Source: Occallatibacter gabretensis
GTDB taxonomy: Bacteria; Acidobacteriota; Terriglobia; Terriglobales; Acidobacteriaceae
Assembly (NCBI RefSeq): GCF_001449115.1
Contig: NZ_LAIJ01000009.1
Coordinates: 2,238,114-2,302,113, forward strand
Reading direction: 5' to 3'
Length of the DNA: 64,000 bases
In this document: one piece after another, positions 41,349 through 64,000 of the stretch
Position numbering within the stretch: the stretch's first letter is position 1
Layout: every line of letters begins with the position of its first letter
Made by a program: the position numbers and the translations under genes
The notes under the pieces: model-generated
The model's input: the letters and a program-made list of their open reading frames with translations, nothing else
Told to the model about the DNA's origin: nothing
The model's database searches: none

Positions 41349-41464
41349 ATAGCTGAAGCAGTTTTTGCCAGAGTTTGATGCGGCTGGCGACACAAAACGA
41401 GTAGGTTAGAAGAAAGACACTCACCTCGTCACTTATTCCGACGATTTCAACGAATGGACAACTG

Positions 41465-42379: not shown

Positions 42380-42388
42380 GAGACCGTT

Positions 42389-44203: not shown

Positions 44204-44227
44204 GCGGGCAGGGGCTCAAAAACTGAC

Positions 44228-45190: not shown

Positions 45191-45239
45191 CGCAGCTTGC
45201 AGATTTGCCGTTTCAACACCCTTGAATGGACTTGCCATC

Positions 45240-46520: not shown

Positions 46521-46528
46521 GTTTAGAT

Positions 46529-48409
46529 ATGTGCGGAATATGCGGACAATTTAATTATGGCCGGCAAGCTCCGGTCCTGCTGCGCGAGGTACAACAGATG
46601 GCGCGCAGTATTATTCATCGCGGCCCCGACGACGAAGGCTACTACGTTAACGACCGGATTGGATTAGGCTTCCGCCGTCTCTCGATTATCGATATTGAGG
46701 GCGGCCATCAGCCAATGTCCGATGCTGAGGAAACAGTGCGCGTAGTCTTCAACGGGGAGATATACAACTTCCCAGAGTTGCGCCGCGAACTTGAAAGCTT
46801 TGGCCATGTCTTCCGCACTCGCTCTGATACCGAGGTGATCGTTCTCGGCTACAAACAATGGGGCGACGATGTTCTCAATCATCTGAATGGAATGTTCGGG
46901 CTCGCGATCTGGGATGAACGCAAACGCCGACTGCTGATTGCACGCGATCCCTTCGGCATCAAGCCAATCTATTACAAGATTAAAGATGGCAGCGTATGGT
47001 TTGGTTCGGAGATTCGAACTATTCTGGCCACGGCAAAGGATAATCCTGAACCAGACCCTACCGCGCTGAATCTTTTTCTTAGGTATCGCTTTACTCCCTC
47101 GCCTTATACGGTTTTCAAGGGGATAAGCAAGCTCGCCGCCGGAACGATGCTGATTTTCGAGGATGGCAAGTCGAGTCAGCGCCGCTGGTACCGCAACAAT
47201 CCCCACCCATTCTCTCCGATGAAATCCGAAGCTGAGGCTCGCGAGGAGTTACTGGAGATTTACAAGCGTTCCGTCAAGAGACATCTGCTCAGTGACGTGC
47301 CGGTAGGATTGCTACTGAGTGGCGGCATAGATTCCTCGTTACTTCTGGCGCTCATGAACCTATATGGGAAGTCGTGGCGTACATTCACAGTTGGGTACGG
47401 TAAAACTTTTGCGGATGACGAACTGAGCGATGCGGCGCAGACTGCCGCTGAGTTCAACGCCATGCATACAGAGGTTTTGCTCGACCGGAAGACCTTCGAG
47501 GATTCATTGCCACGGGTGGTGGAGTTCATGGAAGAGCCTGTTGCCACTCCCTCGGTTTTGCCGATGTTTTTTGTCTGTGAGCGGGCCCGGCGCGATGTGA
47601 AGGTAGCACTGATCGGGCAAGGCCCCGACGAACTGTTTGGCGGATATCGCCGGCATCTGGGAACTCGTTATGGCCAGATCTGGGGCACTATGCCTAAATG
47701 GGTACGAGGACCGATTTCTTCCATGGTTGAGGCGCTACCCAGGAATGAAACCTTGAAGCGTGGCGTGCGCTCACTGGATACGCCGGATCGCCTGCGGCGA
47801 TATCAGCAGGTTCTTTCACTCCTGCCTGATGGACAGATCGATGGCCTCTTCAAATCGAATATTCTGCCCCCTGCGCCAGGAGACGAAATTCTGAAGTCGT
47901 GGGGCGACTTCTCCGATCTGATGGACCACACCGATGAACTGGGTGGCCTGCAGTTCATTGAAATGCGCTCTACTCTGCCGGATGAACTACTAATGTATGG
48001 CGATAAGCTGTCCATGGCTCACAGCCTGGAAGTGCGTGTACCTTATCTCGACAAGGAGGTCGTCGAGTTTGGCGAAAGGCTGTCTGCGGGCTTTAAAGTG
48101 CGCAATGGCGTGGGCAAATGGATTCACCGGGAAGTCTGCAAGTCCTTCCTTCCTGCATCGATTATGCGCCGCAAAAAACGTGGCTTCGCCATGAATGTTG
48201 TGGACGAATGGTTCCGGGCTGAGCAGTCGAAGAAAATGGAAGGAATGCTGCTGGATCCCCAGTCACATATATTCGACTATCTGCAGTCTGCAGCCGTTCG
48301 GGCACTTCTGGATCAACATCGCTCCGGCGCGAGCGATCATCACAAAATTCTCTTCAGTTTGGTTGTTTTGGAAGAGTGGCTCCGTGGTAGCGTGGTGCCT
48401 GCGGTTTGA
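46529..48409 (+). CDS. asnB: Asparagine synthase (glutamine-hydrolysing) family, EPS-associated
   Basis: This 626-residue class II amidotransferase has the glutaminase Cys directly after the start Met (MCGICGQFNYG), RGPDDEGYYV, FNGEIYN and RSDTEVI. The synthase domain has LLLSGGIDSSLLLAL (near residue 260) and GQGPDELFGGYRRH. It can make asparagine, but in polysaccharide loci close relatives (WbpS-type) amidate uronic acids. Because the locus also encodes uronate-forming enzymes, amidation of the EPS uronates is the better guess. It starts 9 bp after the toroid gene. Confidence 0.88.
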   Translation: MCGICGQFNYGRQAPVLLREVQQMARSIIHRGPDDEGYYVNDRIGLGFRRLSIIDIEGGHQPMSDAEETVRVVFNGEIYNFPELRRELESFGHVFRTRSDTEVIVLGYKQWGDDVLNHLNGMFGLAIWDERKRRLLIARDPFGIKPIYYKIKDGSVWFGSEIRTILATAKDNPEPDPTALNLFLRYRFTPSPYTVFKGISKLAAGTMLIFEDGKSSQRRWYRNNPHPFSPMKSEAEAREELLEIYKRSVKRHLLSDVPVGLLLSGGIDSSLLLALMNLYGKSWRTFTVGYGKTFADDELSDAAQTAAEFNAMHTEVLLDRKTFEDSLPRVVEFMEEPVATPSVLPMFFVCERARRDVKVALIGQGPDELFGGYRRHLGTRYGQIWGTMPKWVRGPISSMVEALPRNETLKRGVRSLDTPDRLRRYQQVLSLLPDGQIDGLFKSNILPPAPGDEILKSWGDFSDLMDHTDELGGLQFIEMRSTLPDELLMYGDKLSMAHSLEVRVPYLDKEVVEFGERLSAGFKVRNGVGKWIHREVCKSFLPASIMRRKKRGFAMNVVDEWFRAEQSKKMEGMLLDPQSHIFDYLQSAAVRALLDQHRSGASDHHKILFSLVVLEEWLRGSVVPAV

Positions 48410-48588
48410 GAAGTGCATCGATAGTGGAATTGAATCTAGACAATTAGTTCACTTAACATTGTCTGAAGCTATCCGGTGTTCGGTGTTGGCTGATCCAGCG
48501 ACTTCAAAATGAAGAACGCAAGGGTTGGTTATTCGACGACCTCCATTGTGTGGTTATGCACCATTGATCTCCTAACAGATACAGACTT

Positions 48589-49839
48589 ATGAGTGGTATG
48601 CCAACTCTAGTTGAAGACATTTCGGTTCCTGCTAATCTGTCCGTCCGACAGGCCCCATTAGAGGTCTCCTTGCTGACGGGCGGAGTCGATCGGCCGTATG
48701 CCCAAGGTCTGGCGATGGCTCTGATTGCTAAAGGCGTTCGTCTGGACGTTATTGGCAGCGATTATGTTGATAGTCCGGAAATGCAAACTACGTCCGGGCT
48801 GCATTTTTTCAATCTATGGCCGCCCCAGTCGGCGAATCGCACAGCGGTCGGCAAGCTTTCGAGAGTGCTGCGGCATTATGCCAGCCTTATTCGGTACACC
48901 GCAGCGGCAAAGCCGAAAGTCTTTCACATCCTCTGGAACAGCAAGGTCCAGTTTTTTGATAGAACTCTTCTGATGCTCTACTACAAAGCTATGGGTAAGA
49001 AGGTTGCACTCACAGCGCATAATGTCAATGAAGCTAAGAGAGACGGAAAAGATTCATTTCTAAATCGTCTGACGCTGCGGATGCAGTACTGGCTGACGGA
49101 CCACATATTCGTGCATACACAAAAGATGAAGGATGAACTTATCTCCGACTTCGGAGTACGCGACCGTGTAATCACTGTGATTCGGCATCCCATCAACGAT
49201 GCTTTTCCCGATACAAGTATGACTCCTGCTGAGGCAAAGAAAAAACTGGGCTTGCAGAGTCACGACAAGGCGTTACTTTGCTTTGGCAGAATCAAGCCGT
49301 ATAAAGGCATTGAGCACATGTTGGAGACATTTAGGATCCTGGCCAAACAAGACAGGAGCTACCGTCTCATCATTGCGGGCGAGGCCGAAAAAAGAAACGA
49401 GGACTATCTCAACGAAATCAAGCGGCTGATTCCGTCAGAGCTGATGCACGACGAGCGGATCCTTCTTAAGGCCCAGTTCATTCCCGATGAAGATGTCGAG
49501 CTTTATCTGAAAGCCGCCGACGTGATGGTTCTACCCTACAACCAAATCTTTCAAAGTGGCGTGCTTTTCCTCGGCTACAGTTTCGGATTGCCAGTAGTTG
49601 CGACGGATGTTGGCTCATTCAAAGAAGAAGTTATTGAGGCTAGAACAGGATTCATGGCTCAACCGGGCGATCCGGCAGATCTGGCTAGAGCGATCAACGA
49701 CTACTTCTCTAGTGATCTCTATAAGGATCTAGGGAAGACGCGGACGGAAATCAAGGAACACGCCGACACGCATCACTCATGGACCGCCGTCGCCGAACTG
49801 ACACGGAATGCCTATAGTAGTAGCCTGAAGAAAAACTAG
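48589..49839 (+). CDS. Family 4 glycosyltransferase
   Basis: This 416-residue GT-B-fold transferase has the C-terminal domain signatures LLCFGRIKPYKGIEHMLETF and DVMVLPYNQIFQSGVLFLGYSFGLPVVATDVG, with E-x7-E-type spacing in the nucleotide-sugar site. The N-terminal domain holds VSLLTGGVDRPYAQGLAMALI and KKVALTAHNVNEAKRD. It should add a sugar with retention of configuration to the lipid-linked repeat unit in the cytoplasm. It follows a 179-bp gap after asnB in which I see no gene. Confidence 0.87.
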   Translation: MSGMPTLVEDISVPANLSVRQAPLEVSLLTGGVDRPYAQGLAMALIAKGVRLDVIGSDYVDSPEMQTTSGLHFFNLWPPQSANRTAVGKLSRVLRHYASLIRYTAAAKPKVFHILWNSKVQFFDRTLLMLYYKAMGKKVALTAHNVNEAKRDGKDSFLNRLTLRMQYWLTDHIFVHTQKMKDELISDFGVRDRVITVIRHPINDAFPDTSMTPAEAKKKLGLQSHDKALLCFGRIKPYKGIEHMLETFRILAKQDRSYRLIIAGEAEKRNEDYLNEIKRLIPSELMHDERILLKAQFIPDEDVELYLKAADVMVLPYNQIFQSGVLFLGYSFGLPVVATDVGSFKEEVIEARTGFMAQPGDPADLARAINDYFSSDLYKDLGKTRTEIKEHADTHHSWTAVAELTRNAYSSSLKKN

Positions 49840-51459: not shown

Positions 51460-52686
51460 GTGAGAGAGAAGGTTCTCATCATCGTTGAAAACGCACCCGT
51501 TCCGCTGGACCCACGTGTCTGGAAGGAAGCGCTTGCGTTAAACGAGGCAAACTATGATGTAACGGTTTTGTCTCCCAAGTACAAAGGCTATACGAAGGGC
51601 TATGAGTTAATAGATGGAATTCATATCTACCGTCACCCTATGCCGAAAGAAGGAAATGGGGCATTTGCATATATATGGGAATATTGCTGTGCTCTGTTCT
51701 GGGAATTCTTGCTCTCGTGGTGGATTTATTTCCGACGCGGATTCAATGTGATACAGGCGTGCAATCCGCCAGACACTATTTTCCTGATTGCCCTGCCGTT
51801 CAAGCTTTTTGGCGTTAAGTTTATTTTTGATCACCATGATGTCAATCCAGAATTGTATCTGGCGAAATACGAAAGAAAAGACTTTCTGTATAAGGTTCTA
51901 GTGTGGCTGGAGAAAATGACCTTCCTAGCCAGCGATGTCGTTATCGCAACAAACGATACCTACAAGGAGATCGCGGTGACACGGGGCCGTAAAGCACCCG
52001 AGCGCGTGTTTGTTGTTCGCAATGGACCGAACCTGACAACGTTTCGACCGGTCGCCCCAAATCCCTCGCTAAAGTACGGGAAACCTTACCTAGTTGGATA
52101 TGTTGGCGTTATGAGTGCTCAGGATGGCCTGGACATCCTTTTAGGCGTGGCGGAGTATATCAAGGCACTGGGAAGGCTAGACGTTCACTTCACTTGTGTA
52201 GGCAGTGGTCCAGCTTTCGTGGAACTACAGCAAATGGTCATCGAAAAGAACATTGCTGATATTGTGAACTTCACAGGGAGGATTCCAGATAAAGATCTCC
52301 TTGAAATTCTTTCCACAGCGGATATCTGTGTCAATCCCGATAAACCATGCCGTATGAATGATATTTCAACCATGATCAAGATCATGGAATACATGGCTAT
52401 GGGGAAGCCGATTGTCCAGTTTGACCTTAAGGAAGGAAGAATAAGCGCACAGGACGCGTCACTGTATTGCGACAAAGAGAACCAAGTCGCGGATTTTGCA
52501 GACAAGATACTATGGTTAGTTGATCATCCGGAAGAGAGGCAACGGATGGGAAAATTTGGCTATACGCGCGTCCAGACGGAGCTTGCGTGGAGCTACTCCG
52601 TCGGGAATTTGCTTGCTGCCTATGAGAAGGTTTTTAGCGAAAAACGCAGGAAAAGTACGCTGCAGAGCAGCCCCTCGGAGCTATGA
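51460..52686 (+). CDS. Family 4 glycosyltransferase
   Basis: This 408-residue GT-B-fold enzyme has the N-terminal domain typified by IVENAPVPLDPRVWKEALALNEANYDVTVL and FDHHDVNPELYL. The C-terminal domain has LVGYVGVMSAQDGLDILL, CVGSGPAF, VNFTGRIPDKDLLEILSTADICVNPD and KIMEYMAMGKPIVQFDLKEGR. This group resembles WbuB/WcaL-like transferases of EPS loci. It starts with GTG 51460 behind GAGG. The donor sugar is unknown. Confidence 0.88.
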   Translation: MREKVLIIVENAPVPLDPRVWKEALALNEANYDVTVLSPKYKGYTKGYELIDGIHIYRHPMPKEGNGAFAYIWEYCCALFWEFLLSWWIYFRRGFNVIQACNPPDTIFLIALPFKLFGVKFIFDHHDVNPELYLAKYERKDFLYKVLVWLEKMTFLASDVVIATNDTYKEIAVTRGRKAPERVFVVRNGPNLTTFRPVAPNPSLKYGKPYLVGYVGVMSAQDGLDILLGVAEYIKALGRLDVHFTCVGSGPAFVELQQMVIEKNIADIVNFTGRIPDKDLLEILSTADICVNPDKPCRMNDISTMIKIMEYMAMGKPIVQFDLKEGRISAQDASLYCDKENQVADFADKILWLVDHPEERQRMGKFGYTRVQTELAWSYSVGNLLAAYEKVFSEKRRKSTLQSSPSEL

Positions 52687-52914
52687 ATAGAGATTCGAAG
52701 CGCGACTGGAGTACAAATTGGACATGGGAACATTTTATTACTGAAGAAACGCGGAATATAAAGTCTGGAACTGATTAGGTCTGCTTTCGTTTAAGCAGGC
52801 ATCGGTCTGTGATCGTGTCAATTGTCATTCAAGTTAATGATGTAACGCTCTGATGCATTGCGCAACTATAACCACGATGTCTATCCGAAGTCGTCATTCA
52901 ATTTTGCTAACGAG

Positions 52915-54318
52915 ATGAACAATTACTTAACTGATTATTACCGCTGCCCGGAACAATATGCGCACCTTGCATTGAAAGAGAGTCCCCTTGTGTCACGCGG
53001 GTACTTTCGCTTCGGAGACTGCGGCACATACTTTGGAAAATATCATGGGCGGCAACTTGCGTCACGTGCCACAGAGACGCTTCACGATGGCCTCAGCGAT
53101 GCTGTGATCGAAGAGGGCTCAGTCTCTCTTTGTTTCGATCCCGCCGAGGTTATCGAAAATCTTCGGCAGGAACTCTATGCAGAGGATGACAGCGAGGGAT
53201 TATCCTCTTTAGTAGCTCAGGCCTACTATTTTGTGCGACCGTTGCTCCCTGTAAGCGTGCGAAGCAAGCTTCAAAAGTTCCGTTTGAGAGGATGGAACAA
53301 GCTGAAGTTTCCGCAGTGGCCGGTAGATTGCTCGGTGGATCTTTTGCTTGAGCGCTTATTGCTGTTATCTTTACGGGCCAACAAAATCGAGCGAATCCCT
53401 TTTATCTGGTTCTGGCCTGAAGGGAAATCAAGCTGTGCCATCGTGACGCACGACGTCGAAACGAAGGTCGGAAGAGACTTCTGCCGAGTGCTGATGGATA
53501 TCAATGACTCATTTGGAATCAAGGCATCGTTTCAGGTTGTTCCAGAGGAACGTTACGACGTCCCGATGGAATATTTGGATTCCATCCGCCAGCGTGGATT
53601 CGAAGTTGTTGTGCATGATCTGAACCACGACGGTCGCTTGTATAAGAACCGCAAGCAGTTCCTGGAGCGCGTAGCAAAGATTAATTCCTATGGCAGACAG
53701 TTTGGGGCAAAAGGATTTCGCGCAGGAGTTCTTTACCGGAAGCAACCGTGGTACGACGCGTTCGAGTTCTCCTACGATATGTCTGTTCCGAATGTGGCAC
53801 ACCTTGATCCGCAGCGAGGAGGCTGTTGCACGGTGATGCCATATTTTCTTGGAAATATCCTGGAGATACCTGTAACTACAATTCAGGATTACACACTGTT
53901 CAACATCCTGCATGATTATTCAATCGATATATGGAGAGAGCAAATTAGCCTTATTATGGCGCGTCATGGGCTGATGAGCTTCATCGTGCATCCAGACTAT
54001 GTTATGGGGCAGCAAGAGAACGGGACATACCAATCCTTGTTAAAGCATTTGGCAACGTTGAGAGACGAAAAATCTCTGTGGATTACTACACCTGGGGAAG
54101 TTGACAGTTGGTGGAGGCAGAGAACGCAGATGCGAGTAGTCGAAAAGCAAGATGGTTGGGGTATCGAGGGTCCAGGCAAGGAACGTGCCGTCCTCGCGTG
54201 GGCAAGTGAAAGAGATGGACGACTTGTAGTGAGCCTGGAAGGAGCAAATGAACCCGATTTGCAATATCCTTCGAAGGCTGCAGAGCAGAACTGGCAGTCG
54301 GAAACCACTTCAAGATAA
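52915..54318 (+). CDS. Polysaccharide-deacetylase-like (NodB-fold) protein
   Basis: This protein of about 467 residues opens NYLTDYYRCPEQYAHL and has an N-terminal region of about 170 residues of unknown fold. A NodB-type deacetylase domain follows (about 172-420). Motif 1 is IVTHDVETKVGRDF (D-x-E in place of the usual DD), motif 2 is VVHDLNHDGRLYKN (H-x3-H for metal), and motif 3 is GFRAGVLYRKQPWY. The last 45 residues are a small beta-rich tail. It may de-N-acetylate an EPS amino sugar, which would expose an amine for the acylating enzymes nearby. The frame is open to a TTG at 52858; ATG 52915 fits conservation better. Confidence 0.8.
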   Translation: MNNYLTDYYRCPEQYAHLALKESPLVSRGYFRFGDCGTYFGKYHGRQLASRATETLHDGLSDAVIEEGSVSLCFDPAEVIENLRQELYAEDDSEGLSSLVAQAYYFVRPLLPVSVRSKLQKFRLRGWNKLKFPQWPVDCSVDLLLERLLLLSLRANKIERIPFIWFWPEGKSSCAIVTHDVETKVGRDFCRVLMDINDSFGIKASFQVVPEERYDVPMEYLDSIRQRGFEVVVHDLNHDGRLYKNRKQFLERVAKINSYGRQFGAKGFRAGVLYRKQPWYDAFEFSYDMSVPNVAHLDPQRGGCCTVMPYFLGNILEIPVTTIQDYTLFNILHDYSIDIWREQISLIMARHGLMSFIVHPDYVMGQQENGTYQSLLKHLATLRDEKSLWITTPGEVDSWWRQRTQMRVVEKQDGWGIEGPGKERAVLAWASERDGRLVVSLEGANEPDLQYPSKAAEQNWQSETTSR

Positions 54319-54429
54319 AAAATCTATTGTTTATAGATGTTTTTCCTCATCCGACCTAACGAAAGTAGTCTTAGCTCAGATCCGGCTATATATCTCGTAC
54401 GAAGCAGAGAGGGAGAGAAGGACAGGGAG

Positions 54430-55611
54430 ATGGCAGGTAGTTCACCAGACATTGACATAGCTATTATTGGTGCGGGTCCCTATGGATTATCTGCGGCAGC
54501 TCACCTGCGTGAGGCGGGGATAGAGGCCCGGATATTCGGCAAACCCATGGAATTTTGGGCCGACAAAATGCCGGCAGGAATGCTTCTGCGGTCACCGAGG
54601 CCGGCTTCAACGATTTCAGACCCCAGGTCCAAATTCACTCTGGAAGCATATGAATCGGCGAATAATATAACGCCGGCTCAGCGCACTTCATTGGAGACAT
54701 TTGTAGGTTACGGAAAATGGTTCGTGCAACAGATAGGCTCTGAGCTTGACCAACGAAATATAGGCACGGTCAAAAAAGAGAATTCCACGTTCAAGCTTGT
54801 GCTTGAGGACGGTGCTCAACTCACGGCCCGCTGTGTGGTGGTGGCAGCAGGTGTCGGAAATTTCCGCAGGACTCCTGCGACGTATGCGAAGTTATCTGAA
54901 AAGGCTTGCTCGCATTGTTACGACGGTCGCAAGTTAGTCGGCTTAGGGAAGCGCGTAGCGATAATCGGTGCAGGGCAGAGTGCCTTGGAATGCGCGGCGT
55001 TGCTTGGGGAGGCTGGTGCGGAGGTGGAAGTGATTGCCCGAATTCCCATGCTTCGCTGGATTGGAATGCATCCTAAGCTACATCGACTCGGACCGATCTC
55101 CAAGATGCTCTATTCGAAGCATGACATTGGTCCAATCGGGATTAGTCGGCTAGTTGCTTACCCGAATATGCTTTATCATTTTCCATTGGGGTGGAGAGAT
55201 CGCATCCGAACTCGTGCGGTGCGTTCAGCAGGTGCTCCGTGGTTAATTCCAAGGCTTGGTAATGCAAAGATTACGACTGGGCGCAATATCGTTTCTGTTA
55301 CCGAAATAGGGGACGAGGTCAAGCTCGTGCTTGATGACGGCAGCGAAAGGCGGGTAGATCACGTGCTGCTGGGTACCGGATATAGCGTGGATATTACGAA
55401 ATATAGGTTTCTCGCCACAGACCTGATACAGGCGATCGAACAGTTCAACGGATATCCTAAGGTTAGACGGGGATTACTTAGTTCGGTGCCGGGACTGCAC
55501 TTCCTCGGAGCACCAGCAGCGCGGAGTTTTGGTCCACTACTTAACTTTGTTACCGGGACGGAATTTGCATCGAATGAACTGGTCTCCAATTTATCCCGGA
55601 AGCTGAACTGA
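54430..55611 (+). CDS. FAD-dependent oxidoreductase (flavin monooxygenase-like)
   Basis: This 393-residue two-dinucleotide-binding flavoprotein has the FAD site IAIIGAGPYGLSAAAHLREAG near residue 10, followed by RSPRPASTISDP. The second Rossmann motif is RVAIIGAGQSALECAALLGEAGAEVEVI, and the ATG-type motif is LLGTGYSVDI. The plan resembles N-hydroxylating or Baeyer-Villiger-type monooxygenases and related reductases, but the defining fingerprint is incomplete. It is followed 51 bp on by an ATP-grasp gene. Whether these two belong to the EPS locus or to the downstream carrier-protein pathway is open. ATG 54430 has GGGAG directly upstream. Confidence 0.78.
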   Translation: MAGSSPDIDIAIIGAGPYGLSAAAHLREAGIEARIFGKPMEFWADKMPAGMLLRSPRPASTISDPRSKFTLEAYESANNITPAQRTSLETFVGYGKWFVQQIGSELDQRNIGTVKKENSTFKLVLEDGAQLTARCVVVAAGVGNFRRTPATYAKLSEKACSHCYDGRKLVGLGKRVAIIGAGQSALECAALLGEAGAEVEVIARIPMLRWIGMHPKLHRLGPISKMLYSKHDIGPIGISRLVAYPNMLYHFPLGWRDRIRTRAVRSAGAPWLIPRLGNAKITTGRNIVSVTEIGDEVKLVLDDGSERRVDHVLLGTGYSVDITKYRFLATDLIQAIEQFNGYPKVRRGLLSSVPGLHFLGAPAARSFGPLLNFVTGTEFASNELVSNLSRKLN

Positions 55612-55662: not shown

Positions 55663-56832
55663 GTGGGGGCGGTTGTTGTCGGTGGAGATCATTCCGGCTT
55701 GGCAATTGCGCGCAGCTTGGGCCGACGTGGGATTCCTGTATACATTTTGGACAGCCAATACTGCATCGCGTCGTGTTCGAAATATGCCACGCGCGTAGAG
55801 AAGGCGCCCAATATCTTGAATGAGCGCGAAACTCTTGATGCTGTGTTGGAGTTGGGATGGAAATTCCAGCTCCAGGGCTGGGTTCTGTTCCCGACGCGAG
55901 ACGAAACTGTCGCTGCATTTTCACGACATCGGGACGAGCTCGCCGAGTTCTTCAGGGTTACGACCGGAGAATGGGCGAGTGTGGAATGGGCCTGGGACAA
56001 AGCGAAAACTTACGAGTTGGCGGAGAGACTTGATATTCCCTGTCCGAAGACCTTCGTTCTGAATGGGATCAGTGAATTGCAATCGCTCCATTCGCGATTG
56101 CCGCTGGCGATTAAACCGGCCATCAAGGAGAACTTTTTTTATGCGACGGGCGCAAAGGCATGGCGAGCAAATACCGCGAAGGAGCTTGAGCAGCTCTACG
56201 AAAATGCTAGCCGCCATATCTCGACACAAGAGATACTGGTGCAAGAGATTATTCCCGGGGATGGGCGCGAACAGTATTCCTACTGCGCCTTCTATCAGAA
56301 TGGACGCCCACATAGTACGCTGATTGCGCGTAGGGCACGGCAGCATCCGCGCGAGTTCGGCCGGGCCGCGACGTACGTGGAGACTGTTGAAAAGCCGATA
56401 ATTGAGGACCTCTCCGAAAGATTCCTGGGCGCGATTAAATACCATGGCTTAGTGGAGATCGAGTATAAGCGGGATCCGCGGGACGGAAAGTACAAACTTC
56501 TGGACGTGAATGCGCGACCATGGGGATTTCACGGCCTTGGGGCTGCATGTGGAGTAGATTTCCCCTATTTGGCATATGCAGATCAGATGGGCTTGCCGAT
56601 TGAACCGGCGCGAGCGAAGTCCGGGGTAGGCTGGGTGAGGATGCTTACTGACGTACCGACGGCGCTAGCTGACCTTGCGCATGGCTGCCTTAATCTACGC
56701 ACATATATCCAGTCGATGCGTGCTGCACGTATAGAATCAGTATTTAGCTGGGATGATCCATTGCCGTGGCTGGCGGAGATCGTTATGCTTCCGTATTTTG
56801 TGTCCAGGAAGTACGCACAGACAGCTCGTTGA
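55663..56832 (+). CDS. ATP-grasp carboxylate-amine ligase-like protein
   Basis: This 389-residue ATP-grasp enzyme has an N-terminal pre-ATP-grasp Rossmann-like domain (AVVVGGDHSGLAIARSLGRRGIPVYI). The central lid includes WDKAKTYELAERLDIPCPKT and PLAIKPAIKEN, and VQEIIPGDGREQYSYCAFY binds ATP. The Mg2+ site is FHGLGAACGVDF next to DVNARPWG. Such enzymes make an acyl-phosphate and join it to an amine. Relatives in EPS loci are believed to attach amino acids to sugars. It starts with GTG 55663 behind AGGAAAGG, with no ATG alternative. Confidence 0.8.
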   Translation: MGAVVVGGDHSGLAIARSLGRRGIPVYILDSQYCIASCSKYATRVEKAPNILNERETLDAVLELGWKFQLQGWVLFPTRDETVAAFSRHRDELAEFFRVTTGEWASVEWAWDKAKTYELAERLDIPCPKTFVLNGISELQSLHSRLPLAIKPAIKENFFYATGAKAWRANTAKELEQLYENASRHISTQEILVQEIIPGDGREQYSYCAFYQNGRPHSTLIARRARQHPREFGRAATYVETVEKPIIEDLSERFLGAIKYHGLVEIEYKRDPRDGKYKLLDVNARPWGFHGLGAACGVDFPYLAYADQMGLPIEPARAKSGVGWVRMLTDVPTALADLAHGCLNLRTYIQSMRAARIESVFSWDDPLPWLAEIVMLPYFVSRKYAQTAR

Positions 56833-57261: not shown

Positions 57262-57936
57262 ATGAGCACCGTTGCAACACCAGATCAGCTACAGGTTCAG
57301 GGACTTGAACTCGAAGTTCAGCAGAAGAGTGAGAGCATTATTGATGAGATGATCGCTTCTCTGCCCGATGTCCACAAGTTAACCAGTTCTGAGCGGCGCG
57401 GAATCATTGCCCGCTATAGCTCTGTTCTCGAGGGCAACTTCATCTATTGGATGACAGCTACTCTCATGGCAGCCAAGGCCACAGAAGTAGGGCCCATCCT
57501 TCTTGACAACCTTCTCGAAGAAGTACGCGATGCTCATCCAAACATGTTGCGGAAATTCGCGATAGGCGCGAACGCTTTTCCGAACGACCAGGATGCGCTC
57601 TCCGCGAATGAAGAGCTGATGGATGTTCGTGTCTTCCTTGGCCGCCTGAATGGAGTTCAGTCACTGGTGACGATGGGCTTCTTTGAAGGATTTATCCAGA
57701 AATTCATGCCATTTCTCGCCAGTCTTGCAGCGGCAAACGGATCCACCGAGATGGAATATACGGATGTGCATGGAGTTTGTGACATTGAGCACACCGCAGG
57801 GCTTTTCCGGGCGCTCGGCCTAGAAATGGCAGCCAATCCGGCTGCCCCAGGGACGGATCTGTATGAGGGAGTCTATCTTCTTCGCACACTGATTGAACGT
57901 ACCATCGATCCTAAGTCAGCACCGGTTTCTGCTTAA
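57262..57936 (+). CDS. Heme-oxygenase-like diiron oxidase (HDO superfamily)
   Basis: This 224-residue all-helical protein has the metal ligands of heme-oxygenase-like diiron oxidases: E57 (SVLEGNFIYW), H92 (LLEEVRDAHPNML), E142 (GFFEGFIQKF) and the H-x3-D-x2-H trio H170, D174, H177 (TDVHGVCDIEHTAG). Known members (UndA, BesC, SznF) activate O2 to cleave, desaturate or N-oxygenate small acids and amino acids. The substrate here is unknown. ATG 57262 is fixed by AAGGAGG 8 nt upstream. It is followed after 261 bp by a carrier-protein gene and the rest of the pathway, which suggests a carrier-linked or free fatty or amino acid as substrate. Confidence 0.78.
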   Translation: MSTVATPDQLQVQGLELEVQQKSESIIDEMIASLPDVHKLTSSERRGIIARYSSVLEGNFIYWMTATLMAAKATEVGPILLDNLLEEVRDAHPNMLRKFAIGANAFPNDQDALSANEELMDVRVFLGRLNGVQSLVTMGFFEGFIQKFMPFLASLAAANGSTEMEYTDVHGVCDIEHTAGLFRALGLEMAANPAAPGTDLYEGVYLLRTLIERTIDPKSAPVSA

Positions 57937-58197
57937 TTAGCAGATCAGAGCAGATGATGTAGTTAGCAACGGCGTAAAGTAGCCTCCGAACGAGAGAACG
58001 GGTATTTTGCAAGGGCTGTGCAAAGCTGATAAAGCGGATAACCTTGTCAAGTACCCTCTCTGCGCGTTGCCACATAGGTCTGATACAGTCAGATTTCTGC
58101 CCGATAATGCTTAATTGTTCTCAAACATAACTTATGAATTGCTGTATCATAGGTTTCCTTGAGCAAATCAAATCTAAAACGAAGAGGACATTAGCCC

Positions 58198-58440
58198 GTG
58201 AGCACACGCGCTGAAATTGTTGAGCAGTTCGAAAAAGTTGCGCAAGAGCACAGCCGTTCAATACCTCCTCTGACTGACGATCTGCCGCTTGTCGGATGCG
58301 GACTGGACTCTCTCTGTTTCGCCATTCTTGTCACCCGCCTGGAAGACAAGTTAGGCGTAGACCCATTCGCTGCTGAAGATACTCTCTTTCCGGTAACCTT
58401 TGGCGAGTTCATTCAGCTATATGAAACTTCTGCGAGATAG
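58198..58440 (+). CDS. Free-standing acyl/peptidyl carrier protein
   Basis: This 80-residue carrier protein has the 4'-phosphopantetheine Ser S38 in GCGLDSLCFAIL and helices typical of the family before and after it. It is not the housekeeping fatty-acid ACP (it lacks the DSLDTVEL context) and is closer to discrete carriers in secondary-metabolite clusters. GTG 58198 has a GAGG site. The next gene starts two bases after its stop. The substrate carried is probably loaded by one of the two adenylating enzymes encoded downstream. Confidence 0.88.
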   Translation: MSTRAEIVEQFEKVAQEHSRSIPPLTDDLPLVGCGLDSLCFAILVTRLEDKLGVDPFAAEDTLFPVTFGEFIQLYETSAR

Positions 58441-58442
58441 CG

Positions 58443-59138
58443 ATGAGTGCTTCTACCGGGGAGTCAGTATTGTCGAAGACTCATGCTGTTGAGCCGGATA
58501 GTGAGGCCAATGACGCGTCGTCGACACGCCGCGCCGACGTAGAGAATAGTGCCCAAGTCGGCCCCAACGTGGATGCGCTGCAAGAAATCAGTGGCGATTG
58601 GCAGGAACCTGAAGAAGGCTCGCTACGAGGGTCATTTGGGCGGATACTCCAGATTCTGGCTAGAAGCATGCCAGGAGCAAAGACTTTGCGCGTAATGCTG
58701 CACCGCGCCCGCGGAGTAAAAATCGGAAAAGGGGTATGGATCGGATACGATGTGGTTCTGGATACAGCACGTCCCGACCTCATTACCATCGAAGATGGTG
58801 TGGCCATTAGTATGCGTGCGACTATTATTGCGCACTTCAAGGAATTTCGAGGCGTCCGGATTGAGCGAGAGGCATTTATCGGTCCAGGTGTAATTATTCT
58901 TCCCAACGTCGTAATTGGCCGTGGAGCTGTTGTTGCAGCGGGAAGTGTAGTGTCTCAATCGGTGCCTCCGATGACTGTGGTTCAAGGAAATCCAGCGGTG
59001 CCAATTGCCCGTTGCGGGGTTGCATTCAGGCAGGATATCTCGCTAAAAAAATTTTCCAGAAATCTCAAGCCACTGTCGGTGTCAAAGTCGGTCCCATCGA
59101 AGGATGCAGGCAGCATTCAATCCACTCCTGTAAAGTGA
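58443..59138 (+). CDS. Hexapeptide-repeat acyltransferase
   Basis: This 231-residue protein has an N-terminal acidic unstructured part (about 1-60) and a left-handed beta-helix domain: GVKIGKGVWIGYDVVLDT, ITIEDGVAISMRATIIAH, IEREAFIGPGVIILPNVVIGRGAVVAAGSVV, then PMTVVQGNPAVPIARCG. It resembles serine/maltose/virginiamycin-type O-acetyltransferases. A basic Ser-rich tail follows the domain. Here it would acylate a hydroxyl or amine in the product made by the neighbouring enzymes, or accept an acyl group from the carrier protein; this is inference. Confidence 0.82.
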   Translation: MSASTGESVLSKTHAVEPDSEANDASSTRRADVENSAQVGPNVDALQEISGDWQEPEEGSLRGSFGRILQILARSMPGAKTLRVMLHRARGVKIGKGVWIGYDVVLDTARPDLITIEDGVAISMRATIIAHFKEFRGVRIEREAFIGPGVIILPNVVIGRGAVVAAGSVVSQSVPPMTVVQGNPAVPIARCGVAFRQDISLKKFSRNLKPLSVSKSVPSKDAGSIQSTPVK

Positions 59139-59207
59139 AGCAGTTGGAGAGTTTTCCTCGATTCATCTGTGCTTGATTTCCTCTATTTCCAGGTTTTGGA
59201 GAAATCT

Positions 59208-60617
59208 ATGTCTGTGACAACACCGCAAGGTAGAGTTATAAGCTTATCCGGCCTTCTGCGAGATTCGGGCTGTGCGCCTGGCAACTTCATCCAAGACCCT
59301 GAACAGCGTATTGAATGGCTAGACCTGCTCGAAGGGTCTGTCCTGTATAGCCGTGGCGATGAGCTTCAGGGTCGTTCTGTGCTGATTGCGGTCCAGAGCC
59401 AACTGGCAACTATTGCTGCGTTGATGGAATTGGATGGCATTGCGCAGCGGGTCGTTTTATGCCCACCGGATCTACAATTCGAACACCTTCCCTATGTGAT
59501 TGATACCGCACAGGTGGACGGAATAGTGACAGACCAGGTAATGGCGCAACTGGGTAAGCCGCGTTCTTTGCTTTTCAGTGCGCTCAGCCGAAGCATCCAG
59601 CCTCGCGAAAATTATGAACGGGAAGAAAAAGAGACGGAATGGGTCCTGATGACATCAGGAACCACGGGCTTGCCGAAACTTGTTGCTCATACTCTCGGGA
59701 GTCTGACGGCTGCAATTCAACCTCGAGGTGCGATGAGCACACAGGTGGTTTGGAGCACTTTCTATGACATTCGTAGATATGGTGGCCTCCAGATCCTACT
59801 CCGTGCGGCTCGAACTGGAGCATCATTGGTTCTTCCCGGAACAGCTGAATCCACTGCCGATTTCCTGACACGCGCCGCTTCCTTAGGGGTAACTCATATA
59901 TCCGGAACGCCTTCGCATTGGCGGCGTGCACTGATGTCTCCCGCAGCCCATCAGCTCAAGCCCAAATATGTTCGTCTCTCAGGCGAGGCCATCGATCAGG
60001 CCATTCTCAACAATTTGCGATCCGCATATCCTGAAGCACGGATCGTGCATGCGTTCGCCTCCACAGAGGCGGGAGTGGCCTTTGAAGTGACGGATGGAGC
60101 TCCCGGATTCCCGGAAGACATTCTGGAGGCGAATCCAAGCGTAGACATGCATGTGCAGGATGGCACACTGAGAATTCGCTCGGCAGGAACCGCAAGTCGC
60201 TATCTTGGGGACAATGCACCGGTGCTGAAGAATCAAGATGGATTTGTGGATACCAACGATCTTCTTGAATTGCGGGAAGGCCGATACTATTTCGCCGGTC
60301 GACGTGACGGCGTGATTAATGTGGGCGGCCTCAAGGTCTACCCTGAGCAGGTAGAAGCAGTCATCTCCAGGCACCCTGATGTGCAAATGTGTGTCGTCCG
60401 TGCGCAGAAAAGCCGCATCACGGGCGCACTGGTTGTTGCGGATGTGGTTTTGCGAAAAGACTGCACGCCGATAGAGCATGACGAGTCCCTGATTCAAGCG
60501 GATATCTTGCAGCTTTGCCGAGAGCAGTTACCCGCCTACAAGGTGCCTGCAACCATCAATATTGTTCCGATGCTGGGACTGGGTGGGGCTGGGAAGGTTT
60601 TGCGCCGGAATGCGTAA
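59208..60617 (+). CDS. Acyl-adenylating ligase, first of two
   Basis: This 469-residue ANL-superfamily enzyme activates a carboxylate as acyl-AMP. Motif A3 is LMTSGTTGLPKLVAHT. The A5-like region is HAFASTEAGVAFE. The hinge region is YYFAGRRDGVINVGGLKVYPEQVEAVI, and the catalytic Lys is in GAGKVLRRNA at the very C-terminus. The first 90 residues are shorter and less conserved than in acyl-CoA synthetases, in keeping with ligases that load carrier proteins. ATG 59208 follows GGAG; the SDR gene overlaps its end by 8 bp. The substrate is probably a small aryl or alkyl acid. Confidence 0.87.
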   Translation: MSVTTPQGRVISLSGLLRDSGCAPGNFIQDPEQRIEWLDLLEGSVLYSRGDELQGRSVLIAVQSQLATIAALMELDGIAQRVVLCPPDLQFEHLPYVIDTAQVDGIVTDQVMAQLGKPRSLLFSALSRSIQPRENYEREEKETEWVLMTSGTTGLPKLVAHTLGSLTAAIQPRGAMSTQVVWSTFYDIRRYGGLQILLRAARTGASLVLPGTAESTADFLTRAASLGVTHISGTPSHWRRALMSPAAHQLKPKYVRLSGEAIDQAILNNLRSAYPEARIVHAFASTEAGVAFEVTDGAPGFPEDILEANPSVDMHVQDGTLRIRSAGTASRYLGDNAPVLKNQDGFVDTNDLLELREGRYYFAGRRDGVINVGGLKVYPEQVEAVISRHPDVQMCVVRAQKSRITGALVVADVVLRKDCTPIEHDESLIQADILQLCREQLPAYKVPATINIVPMLGLGGAGKVLRRNA

Positions 60618-61338
60618 TGTACTGGTGACGGGCGCGAGTCGAGGTTTGGGGCTTGGGATTGCCCGCCTGCTCACTTCCGCAGGATATCGAGTCATTGGCG
60701 TTGCGCGCAATGACAATAGCGAGTTTGCTGAGGCACGAGCAGAAGCTGTCAATCCCGGTTCCTTTGTCTTTCATTGCCTTGATCTTGCCGAAATTGAAAA
60801 GATTCCATCCTTCGTATCTCAGTTGCGCAAGGACCATGGGCCAATCTATGGGCTCGTAAACAATGCAGGCATCAGCTTTGAGGGGGCGTTAGCCATGATG
60901 CCGACGGCACAGATAGAACGGCTTGTGCGCCTGAATACTCTTTCGCCGATGGTTCTCACGAAATATGTAGTCCGAAGCATGATGAGTCAGGGTGAAGGCC
61001 GCATTGTGAATCTGTCATCGATTATCGCGTCCACCGGCTACAAGGGACTCTCTGTTTACGGTGCAACAAAATCTTCTCTCCTCGGCTTTTCCCGATCGCT
61101 GGCGCGTGAGGTAGGCGAGATGGGCATCAATGTCAATTCTGTAGCACCTGGTTTTGTTGATACCGAACTCACGCACAGCCTTGACGAAGAAAGTCGGAAC
61201 AAGATTGCGCGGCGCAGCGCTCTTCGCCGGTTGACTGAAGTGAAAGATGTGGCGAACGCCGTGGAGTATCTTCTGAGCGATAAAGCGAAGAACATTACCG
61301 GAACTGTGATCACGGTGGATGCTGGGAGCACGGCGTGA
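60610..61338 (+). CDS. Short-chain dehydrogenase/reductase (FabG-like)
   Basis: This 242-residue classical SDR has the NADP-binding motif VTGASRGLGLGIA and the structural NNAGIS. The catalytic set is Ser in NLSSIIAS with Y-x3-K in YGATKSSLL. The C-terminal segment ends TGTVITVDAGSTA, as in ketoacyl-carrier-protein reductases. It probably reduces a beta-keto or aldehyde intermediate held on the carrier protein. It overlaps the preceding ligase gene by 8 bp and the following ligase gene by 4 bp, so all three are translationally coupled. The frame is open to 60562 inside the ligase gene. Confidence 0.9.
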   Translation: MRNVLVTGASRGLGLGIARLLTSAGYRVIGVARNDNSEFAEARAEAVNPGSFVFHCLDLAEIEKIPSFVSQLRKDHGPIYGLVNNAGISFEGALAMMPTAQIERLVRLNTLSPMVLTKYVVRSMMSQGEGRIVNLSSIIASTGYKGLSVYGATKSSLLGFSRSLAREVGEMGINVNSVAPGFVDTELTHSLDEESRNKIARRSALRRLTEVKDVANAVEYLLSDKAKNITGTVITVDAGSTA

Positions 61339-63140
61339 CTCAAAGCGTTTTGGCTGCATCCGAACAAGCAGAGAAGCCAGCACGGGCATGGTTGCGGGCC
61401 CTTGAGCGGACGGCGGACATTTCTCGGAATCCCCATCGCCTGCTCTCGTCGATGCTGGAAGAACTAGCCGACAGATTCGGGGGTGCTCCTGCCCTGCTGT
61501 CAGATCGGGAGTGTTTCACTTACTCGGAAGTCCTTGCAAGGGCAAACCAGTACACGCGATGGGCACTCGAGCAGGGTCTGAAAAAGGGCGAAGCCGTAGG
61601 TCTGTTGATGACGAACCGGCCCGAATATTTTGCCTGCTGGCTTGGAGTTGCGGCGGCAGGTGGCGTAGTAGCCTTGCTTAACACCAACCTTGTCGGCCCA
61701 TCGTTGTCCCATTGCATCAACGTTGCGCAGCCTAAGCATTTGATCGTATCGGGTGAATTCGTTGATTCCCTAACGACAGCGCTGACGGGCCTTTCATGTG
61801 AACCGCAAATCTGGATGCACGGAGCTAGCTACGGATCACTCCCGCGCATCGATCACTACATTCAGGAGCTGCCGGCCAACAATCTGACGGATACAGAGAA
61901 GCCAAAGCTCTCTATCGATGATGTAGCGCTCTATATCTATACGTCTGGCACAACCGGCTTGCCAAAGGCGGCTAATGTCAGTCATGCGCGCATTCTGCAG
62001 TGGTCCCAATGGTTTGCTGGAATGCTCCACGTTCAGCCAGATGACCGAATATATAACTGCTTACCGATGTATCACAGCATTGGCGGGGTACTTGTTCCCG
62101 GCGCTGCGTTGGCGAGCGGAGGCAGCGTTGTGGTTCGTGAGTCCTTTTCGGTCAGCCAGTTTTGGAATGATGTAGTCCGTTGGGATTGCACGATGTTTCA
62201 ATACATCGGGGAATTCTGCCGGTACCTGCTTCACGCACCGCAGGGATCAAACGATCTGAATCATCGCATCCGGATAGCCTGCGGTAATGGCATGTCAGCA
62301 GATACCTGGCGTTTGTTTCAGGAACGGTTTCACATTCCGAGAATTCTCGAATTTTATGCCTCCACTGAAGGCGCGTTGTCCTTATTCAATGTAGAGGGAG
62401 AACCGGGTGCAATTGGCCGCGTCCCGCCCTACCTGGCGCATCGATTTTCGCCGGTTCTGACAAAGTTTGATCCTGAGCGTGCGGAGTTGGTGCGCAATGC
62501 GCAGGGGTTTTGCATTCCGTGTGCGACCAATGAAGCAGGAGAAGCTCTTGCTCGGATAGTCAAAGATCCATCGCAGGTAGGCAGCCGGTTTGAAGGCTAC
62601 ACGGACACAGGGGCATCTGAAAGCAAGTTGTTACGGGACGTTTTTGAGCCTGGCGATGTATGGTTTCGCACTGGCGATCTGATGCGAAGGAACGAAAAGG
62701 GATTTTTCTACTTTGTCGATCGCATCGGCGAGACGTTTCGATGGAAGGGCGAGAATGTTGCAACTACTGAAGTCGCCGAAGTCCTTCGTGCATTTCCGGG
62801 CGTCAAGCATGCAATTGTTTATGGTGTAAAAATTGCGGGCGCAGAGGGTAGGATCGGCATGGCTGCACTCACTGTCGACGGCGTTCCGGACCTGGAAGCA
62901 CTTCGGCAACACTGGGTACAGCGTCTCCCATCGTACGCGCGTCCAGCATTCATTCGCCTTCAGGATGACTTCGAGACAACCGGAACATTTAAGTATTCAA
63001 AGAACGAATTGATACGCCAGGGATACAATCCGGATCTGACAGCCGATGCTGTCTATTTCGTTAATCCGGCGATGCAAGCGCTACACCTGCTCAACCGGGA
63101 TCTGTACGAGCGGATACAAGCCGGGCAGATCCGCTTGTGA
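61335..63140 (+). CDS. FATP/very-long-chain acyl-CoA synthetase-like ligase, second of two
   Basis: This 601-residue ANL enzyme has the fatty-acid transport protein signature: YIYTSGTTGLPKAANVSHAR, then LPMYHSIGGVLVPGAAL, EFYASTEGALSLFN, WFRTGDLMRRNEKGFFYFVDR and GETFRWKGENVATTEVAEVL. This DR-x-G-x-TFRWKGENV block is typical of the SLC27/FATP subgroup, which prefers long-chain or bulky acids such as bile acids. It differs clearly from the first ligase encoded upstream and should use a different carboxylate. GTG 61335 overlaps the SDR stop. Confidence 0.88.
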   Translation: MTQSVLAASEQAEKPARAWLRALERTADISRNPHRLLSSMLEELADRFGGAPALLSDRECFTYSEVLARANQYTRWALEQGLKKGEAVGLLMTNRPEYFACWLGVAAAGGVVALLNTNLVGPSLSHCINVAQPKHLIVSGEFVDSLTTALTGLSCEPQIWMHGASYGSLPRIDHYIQELPANNLTDTEKPKLSIDDVALYIYTSGTTGLPKAANVSHARILQWSQWFAGMLHVQPDDRIYNCLPMYHSIGGVLVPGAALASGGSVVVRESFSVSQFWNDVVRWDCTMFQYIGEFCRYLLHAPQGSNDLNHRIRIACGNGMSADTWRLFQERFHIPRILEFYASTEGALSLFNVEGEPGAIGRVPPYLAHRFSPVLTKFDPERAELVRNAQGFCIPCATNEAGEALARIVKDPSQVGSRFEGYTDTGASESKLLRDVFEPGDVWFRTGDLMRRNEKGFFYFVDRIGETFRWKGENVATTEVAEVLRAFPGVKHAIVYGVKIAGAEGRIGMAALTVDGVPDLEALRQHWVQRLPSYARPAFIRLQDDFETTGTFKYSKNELIRQGYNPDLTADAVYFVNPAMQALHLLNRDLYERIQAGQIRL

Positions 63141-63270
63141 CTGAAGCCGCTTTCTTAGCTTTGCGGTAGCTTTAGAAAAATCCGCGCAGATGAGTATGCG
63201 CACAAAAAAGAATGAAGCTGCATATTCATTCGCATAAGACACCCGCAAGAACTGTCAGCCTAACTAATCC

Positions 63271-64000
63271 ATGTTTATTGATCCAATCCGGCATGAGTTT
63301 GAAACAACGCAGGCCCTCATCGATGAAGGGCCGGTTTGGCCGAATGTTTCTCCTGAAGAAGTTCGAGAGCATCTTGTGGCCCGATACGATTTCAGCCGGG
63401 CGATTCCTCTGGAAGATGTTGCCGCTGATGTAGAAGAAATGCTGCGCCGCTGGCAAGTGCAGATCACGCATCCTCGTTACTTGGGCTTATTCAACCCCAG
63501 CATTAGCTTTGCTTCCGTCATTGCGGACGCATTGGTTGCTACCTATAATCCACAGCTTGCGGCTTGGCGGACTGCGCCGGCACCTAACGAAATTGAGCGG
63601 CATACGCTTGGCTGGCTTGCAACCAAGTTTGGTCTGCCTTCTAATGCACTCGCCACTTTCACCAGCGGCGGGGCGGAGGCAAACCTCTCTGCTGTCGTCA
63701 CCGCCTTAACTCATGCGTTTCCCGACTACAGTGATAATGGTCTCAGAAGCCTAGCTGCTACTCCTGTCATTTATCTCTCAGCGGAAGCGCATCATTCCTT
63801 TAGCAAAATTGTCCACATGGTGGGTCTCGGGCGCAAATCCCTGCGAGCGTTGCCGACTGACCTCGATCTAAGGATGAACCCTCGCGCTCTTGCTCGTGAG
63901 ATCAGCGAAGATCGTGCAAATGGATTTGCTCCCCTGATGGTAGTTGGAACCGCCGGTACGACTGCCGCCGGCGCAATTGATCCCTTGCAGGAACTTGCTC
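63271..64000 (+). CDS. PLP-dependent decarboxylase (group II), 5' part
   Basis: The reading from ATG 63271 stays open to the window end (243 codons). It shows THPRYLGLFNPSISFASVIADALVA, WRTAPAPNEIERHTLGWLA, the PLP-phosphate segment FTSGGAEANLSAV, the PLP-stacking His in SAEAHHSFSKIVH and the start of GTAGTTAAGAIDPLQELA. This is the glutamate/aspartate/aromatic-amino-acid decarboxylase family (PF00282). The Lys-containing active site is outside the window. An in-frame stop lies two codons before the ATG. It sits 130 bp after the second ligase on the same strand and may supply an amine (decarboxylated amino acid) for the product. Confidence 0.88.
   Translation, partial: MFIDPIRHEFETTQALIDEGPVWPNVSPEEVREHLVARYDFSRAIPLEDVAADVEEMLRRWQVQITHPRYLGLFNPSISFASVIADALVATYNPQLAAWRTAPAPNEIERHTLGWLATKFGLPSNALATFTSGGAEANLSAVVTALTHAFPDYSDNGLRSLAATPVIYLSAEAHHSFSKIVHMVGLGRKSLRALPTDLDLRMNPRALAREISEDRANGFAPLMVVGTAGTTAAGAIDPLQELA

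Follow-up and report, generated by a model that had tools for sequence, protein, structure and literature searches.

Closest described systems

The closest described logic to the operon reported here would appear, by analogy and as far as the excerpts of PMC11177257 extend, to be the Chm series of chalkophomycin biosynthesis, with BtrI/BtrK of butirosin and RfbK/RfbL of Vibrio cholerae O1 as looser parallels. The operon starts near the end of a 64,000-nucleotide stretch of Occallatibacter gabretensis DNA, in the following called the window (G000:C2:2238114-2302113, genome of 5.35 Mb). It combines a predicted heme-oxygenase-like dimetal oxidase (HDO), a free acyl carrier protein (ACP), two ligases of the ANL family (ANL1 and ANL2), a short-chain dehydrogenase/reductase (SDR), a pyridoxal phosphate (PLP) decarboxylase (PLPDC) and enzymes of the MetY and MetA types. 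Our preferred reading, to which we give a probability of roughly 0.5, is that it is a thiotemplated building-block module that works without a polyketide synthase (PKS) or non-ribosomal peptide synthetase (NRPS) and has a homoserine-derived precursor supply.

In the case of chalkophomycin, the adenylase ChmJ, the ACP ChmI, the oxidases ChmG/H, the alpha/beta hydrolase ChmF and a second adenylase, ChmK, are described (PMC11177257, in excerpts). As proposed for the present operon, the ChmGHIJF/K set uses an adenylase to load a free ACP, carrier-bound oxidation, release by a hydrolase and re-activation by the second adenylase. It differs in that its oxidases are flavoproteins, its substrate is proline and its product feeds an NRPS, and the same excerpts mention no MetA, MetY or decarboxylase. 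The butirosin pair BtrI/BtrK likewise joins a free carrier protein to a PLP decarboxylase, for a product that is part of an aminoglycoside; BtrK has the alanine-racemase fold and decarboxylates BtrI-S-Glu, whereas the PLPDC of the operon belongs to group II (PMC7857480, in excerpts). RfbL/RfbK of Vibrio cholerae O1 are thought to act for 2,4-dihydroxybutanoate in the O-antigen and, as here, a ligase and a carrier protein stand in a polysaccharide locus (excerpts of PMC12208996).

A further resemblance concerns the exosortase-A-associated hydrolases 1 and 2 and acyl ligase (TIGR03100, TIGR03101 and TIGR03098): similar alpha/beta hydrolases occupy a variable slot of the operon in some relatives, and ANL2 reaches 130.6 of 592 bits with the acyl ligase model. 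By term search, the 2006 PEP-CTERM paper contains none of the words acyl, ligase, decarboxylase and hydrolase, and a paper on flocs none of acyl carrier, acyl-CoA ligase, decarboxylase and hydrolase. In rhizobitoxine biosynthesis, the MetY-like domain of RtxA is a putative MetY homologue that uses O-acetylhomoserine for a secondary metabolite. To our knowledge, the butirosin side-chain system has neither HDO nor SDR, the RfbK/RfbL system has no HDO, decarboxylase or MetY/MetA, and rhizobitoxine has no comparable carrier-protein operon. The operon would fall outside the PKS and NRPS signatures on which genome-mining rules are usually based; the Acidobacteria and Rokubacteria are, as far as we know, soil groups with few known metabolites. 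No description of the eight-gene set was recognised in the open-access literature (titles, beginnings of abstracts and passages), which is weak evidence of absence because only open-access papers were covered.

Gene content of the operon

Seven genes lie between 57262 and 64000, all of them open frames on the forward strand and tightly packed, and two more follow beyond the window (coordinates of the extended locus, L002):

57262..57936, + strand: HDO, heme-oxygenase-like dimetal oxidase, 224 aa (PF14518 below cut-off, candidate ligands, fold model)
58198..58440, + strand: ACP, free carrier protein, 80 aa (PF00550 over cut-off)
58443..59138, + strand: HEX, left-handed beta-helix acyltransferase, lineage-specific slot gene, not core (PF00132, 45.2 bits)
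59169..60617, + strand: ANL1, adenylate-forming ligase, proposed ACP loader (PF00501/PF13193)
60610..61338, + strand: SDR, FabG-like reductase/dehydrogenase (adh_short; the frame opens at 60562, likely start ATG 60610)
61335..63140, + strand: ANL2, long-chain-acyl-CoA-synthetase-like ligase (NF006134 over cut-off)
63271..64000, + strand: PLPDC, group II PLP decarboxylase, 5' part (complete as L002:6385-7767, 460 aa, which would end at 64653)
L002:7809-9119, outside the window: MetY-like gene (TIGR01326)
L002:9154-10245, outside the window: MetA-like gene (NF003776, PF04204)

With ATG 60610 as its start, SDR shares 8 bp with the end of ANL1, and its own end overlaps ANL2 by 4 bp. The gaps amount to 2 bp between ACP and HEX, 30 bp between HEX and ANL1, 130 bp between ANL2 and PLPDC and 261 bp between HDO and ACP. 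The window edge at base 64000 truncates the operon inside PLPDC, with the MetY-like and MetA-like genes just beyond. Eight genes form the core: HDO, ACP, ANL1, SDR, ANL2, the PLP decarboxylase, MetY and MetA.

The original prediction, made from the window alone, had described seven co-oriented and in part overlapping genes, and both the layout and its family labels agree with what we found, the latter by Pfam and NCBIfam profiles. Its gene list was right as far as given and incomplete: the decarboxylase is completed past the window, MetY and MetA are also conserved, and a seemingly dedicated homoserine acyltransferase with an O-acylhomoserine enzyme had not been foreseen, nor had the exopolysaccharide (EPS) locus in which the window's copy is set. 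The hexapeptide acyltransferase that it counted in the set is present here, as a lineage-specific gene outside the core. Reading on past 64000 gave the end of PLPDC and the MetY-like and MetA-like genes, and no standard NRPS or PKS.

Conservation and linkage

A scan of genome contigs with an HDO-only pattern, which picks up close relatives, yielded 50 loci, by record title 33 acidobacterial, 15 from Rokubacteria, one from Pirellulales and one from Formivibrio. For the operon count, we kept the 25 loci in which 9 kb or more follow HDO, and the full core set of eight is present in 20. Among the other five, MetA alone is absent from L024 and L051, whose sequence stops near MetY, and L044 has a diverged ACP and stops inside MetY; the remaining two are L033 and L042, on which more below. 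A conserved operon across Acidobacteria and Rokubacteria is real and the linkage of its genes well supported. Gene order differs among loci (L031, L046, L050 and others), an indication that the genes are held together by selection and not by recent descent alone. In 34 of the 38 loci having both ACP and ANL1, ANL1 starts less than 300 bp after ACP, and in the four exceptions HEX (three) or a P450-type gene (one) stands between them. Additionally, the distance matrices correlate for all 28 pairs of the eight genes (r 0.36-0.82, with 0 of 999 permutations as high, computed without the duplicate L102 and the near-duplicate L043), a correlation that common descent of one operon explains as well as co-adaptation would.

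Within the phylum, three of 396 genomes, the own genome included, contain HDO; at E 1e-60 or better, ANL1 is found in these three and in one more genome, as a diverged match. ANL2 was found in 36 of the 56 compared loci, many of the others being too short. An ACP-ANL-SDR triad at L109:8091-10469, in a distant member of the phylum (G335), has about 43, 33 and 44% identity and stands without HDO or MetY/MetA; it looks like an older module. The earlier suggestion of an acid that is loaded on the carrier and then taken through a redox step is consistent with this, as ACP-ANL1-SDR looks like such a set and its diverged counterpart recurs alone in one distant genome.

No condensation or ketosynthase domain was detected within 186 kb of the operon when the genome was searched; the nearest condensation domain (C2:2105910) lies about 189 kb and the nearest ketosynthase (C2:2108531) about 187 kb from HDO (C2:2295375), and at these distances a known NRPS/PKS product is rejected. 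The original prediction had seen no ketosynthase, condensation domain or thioesterase in the window, and for the first two this now extends to 186 kb; no search for thioesterases was made. It had also named two findings that would speak against it, a standard NRPS/PKS of known product downstream and genes that are not kept together in related genomes, and neither was encountered, since the operon is conserved as a unit and neither a condensation nor a ketosynthase domain lies near it.

Some peculiarities of single loci were observed. In Acidipila rosea DSM 103428 (L013), the genes from HDO to PLPDC are present up to the contig end, and in Granulicella sp. L46 (L023) all eight were detected, with ANL1 divided between two frames in the record. 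ANL2 is on the opposite strand in L038, L044 and L051, all from Rokubacteria, the operon being otherwise co-oriented there. Eight metagenome assemblies, five of them Rokubacteria, carry at least two HDO homologues on different contigs (L041/L042, L029/L040, L036/L044, L033/L051, L048/L049, L026/L037/L055, L034/L043 and L017/L022), where binning errors are possible, and L042 and L043 hold a nearly identical operon under different phylum names.

Predicted functions of the core enzymes

HDO matches PF14518 with 26.5 bits, just under the Pfam cut-off of 28.9. No NCBIfam match at all was obtained for HDO or for ACP, and a search of the HDO sequence profile against solved structures returned only 4-aminobenzoate synthase at E 0.063 and one unrelated chain. 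Seven residues (E57, E87, H92, E142, H170, D174 and H177) are invariant in 40 aligned sequences, so that the three histidines and three or four carboxylates of the superfamily stand at conserved places. We infer from the alignment that each of the seven, E57 included, binds metal. As candidate ligands they would be enough for the 3H/4C class, which is described for HDOs beside 3H/3C (PMC13108848, in excerpts). The structure model, with a mean pLDDT of 94.4, points to the seven-helix heme-oxygenase-like fold: VIA gave Z values of 19.2 for CADD (1rcw, root-mean-square deviation 2.6, 199 aligned), 17.9 for HrmI and 16.1 for UndA, followed by PolF, with SznF lower; with Foldseek alone, E was only 0.017. 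Invariant candidate ligands and the fold model together support the diiron HDO with a full ligand set that had been predicted.

The ACP matches PF00550 (PP-binding) with 22.2 bits, over the cut-off of 20.8, and carries a DSL motif, the serine S38 of its GLDSL being invariant in 41 of 41 and in 16 of 16 sequences. By Pfam, both ligases match the AMP-binding family, SDR matches adh_short and HEX matches Hexapep. In the case of ANL2, the long-chain-acyl-CoA synthetase model NF006134 is passed with 713.9 bits (cut-off 625), and in the case of ANL1 none of the best 25 of 84 curated NCBIfam matches exceeds its cut-off (the top one, MenE, has 114.5 against 330), which agrees with the earlier impression of two ligases unlike each other. 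No solved relative of ANL1 was found at 1e-15, and since profile and fold searches yield generic ANL matches only, we make no call on its specificity. Judging by these comparisons, it is a divergent ANL enzyme with no near solved relatives; K476 of its C-terminal GK motif is invariant in 20 sequences.

For SDR, 3-oxoacyl-ACP reductase models score best yet remain under cut-off, and no curated FabG cut-off is reached. At least 97% of the 38 loci compared retain its residues S153, Y166, K170, R138 and R182 (numbered from 60562), a residue comparison in which L011 and L102, which are one locus, were both counted. The first three are the catalytic Ser, Tyr and Lys. Matching by eye, we take R138 and R182 to correspond to the ACP-docking R129 and R172 of E. 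coli FabG; both arginines are also present in the SDR of the G335 triad. PLPDC is nearest to the L-2,4-diaminobutyrate decarboxylase and PanP models, far under their cut-offs, and its PLP lysine K288 is kept in at least 97% of 31 loci. Because the solved relatives of PLPDC and of MetY scatter over several activities, no substrate is assigned to either. Apart from the two ligases, the eight core genes include no obvious amide-forming enzyme for the joining of the loaded acid to a decarboxylated amino acid that the original prediction proposed.

The putative homoserine branch

The operon MetY scores 612.7 bits with TIGR01326 (cut-off 495.1) and keeps its PLP lysine K214 (SLTK) in at least 97% of 32 loci. 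MetA scores 375.4 bits with NF003776 (cut-off 358) and matches PF04204; its C172, H264 and E266, aligned with solved enzymes, are kept in at least 97% of 29 loci, and we take them to be the catalytic Cys, His and Glu. The acyl specificity of MetA depends on Gly or Glu at one position; the region reads TGxEP here and the aligned position varies.

The pair is not the only one for homoserine acylation and sulfhydrylation in the genome, as contig C5 carries another MetY, 56% identical, and right behind it a MetX-like gene whose 378 bits fall short of the curated cut-off (500). In the search of relatives, some MetY-family match occurs in 60 of 60 genomes and a MetA-type match in 8 of 60, and a close MetY (at least 770 bits) and a close MetA (at least 347 bits) occur in the same 4 of 60, the own genome included. 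At the level of the phylum, 34 of 396 genomes have a MetA match, exceeding 200 bits only in the three with HDO. A tree of 56 MetYs groups the 30 from operons in one clade (support 100/99), far from 23 MetYs of the genus, the genome's own second copy among those. As a second MetY and a MetX-like gene lie elsewhere and the operon MetYs have a clade of their own, the operon pair looks dedicated and, to judge by sequence, the homoserine branch looks private to the operon.

The sister group of the operon MetYs is the MetY of three genomes from another family of the same order, two of which were examined. In L110, the neighbours of MetY and MetA are an ANL ligase and a 2-hydroxyacid dehydrogenase, and the set adjoins FMO-, ATP-grasp- and deacetylase-like genes. 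In L111, they come after glycosyltransferase-, FMO-, ATP-grasp- and FemAB-like, PP-binding/thioesterase and asparagine-synthase-like genes. From these two neighbourhoods it follows that this type of MetY/MetA is found with ligases, carriers and genes of the surface-polysaccharide type. The segments L110:8857-14253 and L111:5726-11389 possibly represent a sister pathway.

Proposed pathway

In the building-block pathway that we propose, ANL1 would adenylate an acid and load it onto the free ACP, and HDO, by O2-dependent dimetal oxidation, and the FabG-like SDR would modify the acyl group, at least the SDR step taking place on the carrier. The acyl group would then be removed by an alpha/beta hydrolase in some lineages or by an acyltransferase in others, HEX being the candidate here. 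ANL2 could re-activate the freed acid, or a long-chain partner acid, as a CoA thioester. On the other branch, MetA would O-acylate homoserine, MetY would swap the acyl group at C-gamma for sulfide or another nucleophile, and PLPDC would decarboxylate the product, or a different amino acid, to an amine, which the class III transaminase often found near the operon could convert to an aldehyde. A route through MetA, MetY, PLPDC, transaminase and aldehyde dehydrogenase to a 3-substituted propanoate for ANL1 would fit these genes, the neighbours among them being loosely linked. We infer the order of the steps, the action of HDO on an ACP-bound substrate, its substrate, the acceptor and the product.

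More tentatively, HDO may oxidise an acyl or aminoacyl group on the free carrier while the dedicated MetA/MetY divert homoserine to a surface-linked or secreted metabolite of two soil phyla with hardly any cultured members, in what would be a class of biosynthesis not yet described; we regard this fuller proposal as possible, if short of probable. An HDO that works on a substrate bound to an ACP would be a novelty, to judge by the excerpts of PMC13108848. Each of the eight enzymes is a protein of its own and of modest size, so that the pathway could be reconstituted in vitro. This would show whether HDOs act on carrier-bound substrates and what the purpose of a second homoserine acyltransferase/MetY pair is, if not methionine.

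Variable slot and flanking genes

Which genes occupy the slot, located either between HDO and ACP or next to the operon, depends on the lineage. A pair of alpha/beta hydrolases resembling the exosortase-associated hydrolases 2 and 1 occurs in L009, L011, L014, L019, L021 and L052, and L103 has one of the two before ACP. With one member per cluster scored, they reach 50.3 of 168 and 71.4 of 203 bits; both are far under cut-off, and we reject them as true exosortase-A-associated hydrolases 1/2 and speak of resemblance only. Close copies of HEX (77-83% identity) are found at the slot in L007, L008 and L012 only, with weaker hexapeptide proteins in L016, L018 and L024, an Acyl_transf_3 protein in L051 and a P450-cluster protein in L024 and L041.

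Downstream of MetA comes a gene whose product weakly matches the squalene-hopene-cyclase C-terminal model, then a class III aminotransferase gene on the opposite strand. A class III transaminase follows the operon in 10 of the 22 loci with room for one. Among these 22 loci, an aldehyde dehydrogenase gene lies near L023 and L032, and there is one upstream in L021; PF00291 and PF00288 matches, which we take to be threonine-synthase-like and homoserine-kinase-like, lie upstream in L013. Both sets are too rare for the model. At L037:6850-9245, an HDO homologue (50% identity) without the operon is directly followed by a homologue (42%) of the squalene-cyclase-C-terminal-like protein, thus of the gene right after MetA in this genome.

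Exopolysaccharide context

In the window, an EPS locus runs up to the operon, which forms its end. The context features are:

20852..49839, + strand: exopolysaccharide locus (NCBIfam and Pfam matches)
51460..52686, + strand: glycosyltransferase (homologues near HDO in L010, L012 and L044, also in L111)
52858..54318, + strand: DEAC, polysaccharide-deacetylase-like (near the operon in L038, L044 and L051)
54337..55611, + strand: FMO-like flavoprotein (PF07992/PF13434; homologues in L110 and L111, short piece in L038)
55663..56832, + strand: ATP-grasp protein (PF15632, 30.7 bits; homologues in L038, L051, L110 and L111)

The locus encodes an UpxY antiterminator, an export protein, a chain-length protein, an ATPase, a tyrosine autokinase and a sugar phosphotransferase, and further amino-sugar-type enzymes, a flippase, amidotransferases and glycosyltransferases. 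The UpxY and eps_fam models are over cut-off, and the models of the XrtA/PEP-CTERM system are all under. An exosortase-A (XrtA) EPS locus is rejected, as the only PF09721 match in the genome is at C2:415125, about 1.8 Mb off. DEAC has no Pfam match of its own at 0.001, and its L110 homologue matches PF01522 with 21.2 bits, under the cut-off of 23.1. At 28405-31176, a UDP-GlcNAc-3-dehydrogenase-like gene, an acetyltransferase gene and a PseC-like aminotransferase gene lie side by side; none reaches its model cut-off, and together they suggest a diamino sugar in the polysaccharide.

Nine of the 50 HDO loci are shorter than 9 kb and were not counted here. Of the 41 that remain, 19 have homologues of the EPS locus next to them; the controls were 16 neighbourhoods of the other MetY, all from one genus, and none of them has such homologues. 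The EPS link is an association, not a rule.

Weighing of the alternatives

Several observations weigh against the building-block reading. L033 is without ANL2 and without a clear PLPDC, L042 and L043 have no detectable ACP or SDR, and HDO stands alone in seven loci: four of them end within 150 bp, but the other three, L010, L022 and L037, lack ACP despite 1.8, 1.2 and 2.6 kb of room. Fewer than half of the loci have a HEX-type acyltransferase, and the same holds for the hydrolases. Of the 10 transaminase genes, eight lie on the opposite strand and the remaining two are just 40-43% identical; three are more than 1 kb away. Nothing fixes the substrate of ANL1, PLPDC or MetY. EPS is not a general context either, because 22 of the 41 loci have no polysaccharide gene by the test used. 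Regarding HDO, action on a carrier is without precedent in the excerpts of the HDO review, where the words carrier protein appear in the reference list only (PMC13108848).

An acyl or aminoacyl decoration of the EPS, for which HEX would transfer an acid assembled on ACP to an (amino) sugar, would explain why the window's copy ends an EPS locus with 3-dehydrogenase-, aminotransferase- and acetyltransferase-like genes and why polysaccharide homologues are enriched near HDO over the controls. It is also in line with the MetY/MetA in EPS-type loci of a second family and with the RfbL/RfbK parallel (PMC12208996, in excerpts). However, the 22 loci without such a gene nearby and the restriction of close HEX copies to three relatives make this explanation doubtful, the more so as acyltransferases are common in EPS loci anyway. 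We consider it unlikely that the operon makes an amino-lipid or N-acyl amine, with ANL2 activating a long-chain acid, MetA/MetY/PLPDC making the amine head group and ACP/ANL1/HDO/SDR modifying one part: the model passed by ANL2 and the presence of PLPDC with a transaminase near it would suit such a product, but the eight core genes include no N-acyltransferase or condensing enzyme. Finally, MetY and MetA could be ordinary methionine genes that lie downstream of a six-gene cluster by chance, both families being classical methionine enzymes with their catalytic residues kept. The separate MetY and adjacent MetX-like gene on C5, the rarity of MetA in the relatives and in the phylum, the linkage conserved across Acidobacteria and Rokubacteria and the MetY clade of their own make this highly improbable, and a housekeeping role is rejected.

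Regulation

An Rfam scan of nine loci (149,864 bases) at gathering scores gave no riboswitch match, e.g. to SAM types, and promoter and terminator patterns at 56700-58500 were at chance level. An UpxY-family antiterminator lies upstream of HDO in L014, L020 and L032, as at 20852, the start of the EPS locus in the window, and a protein of this family may regulate the operon.

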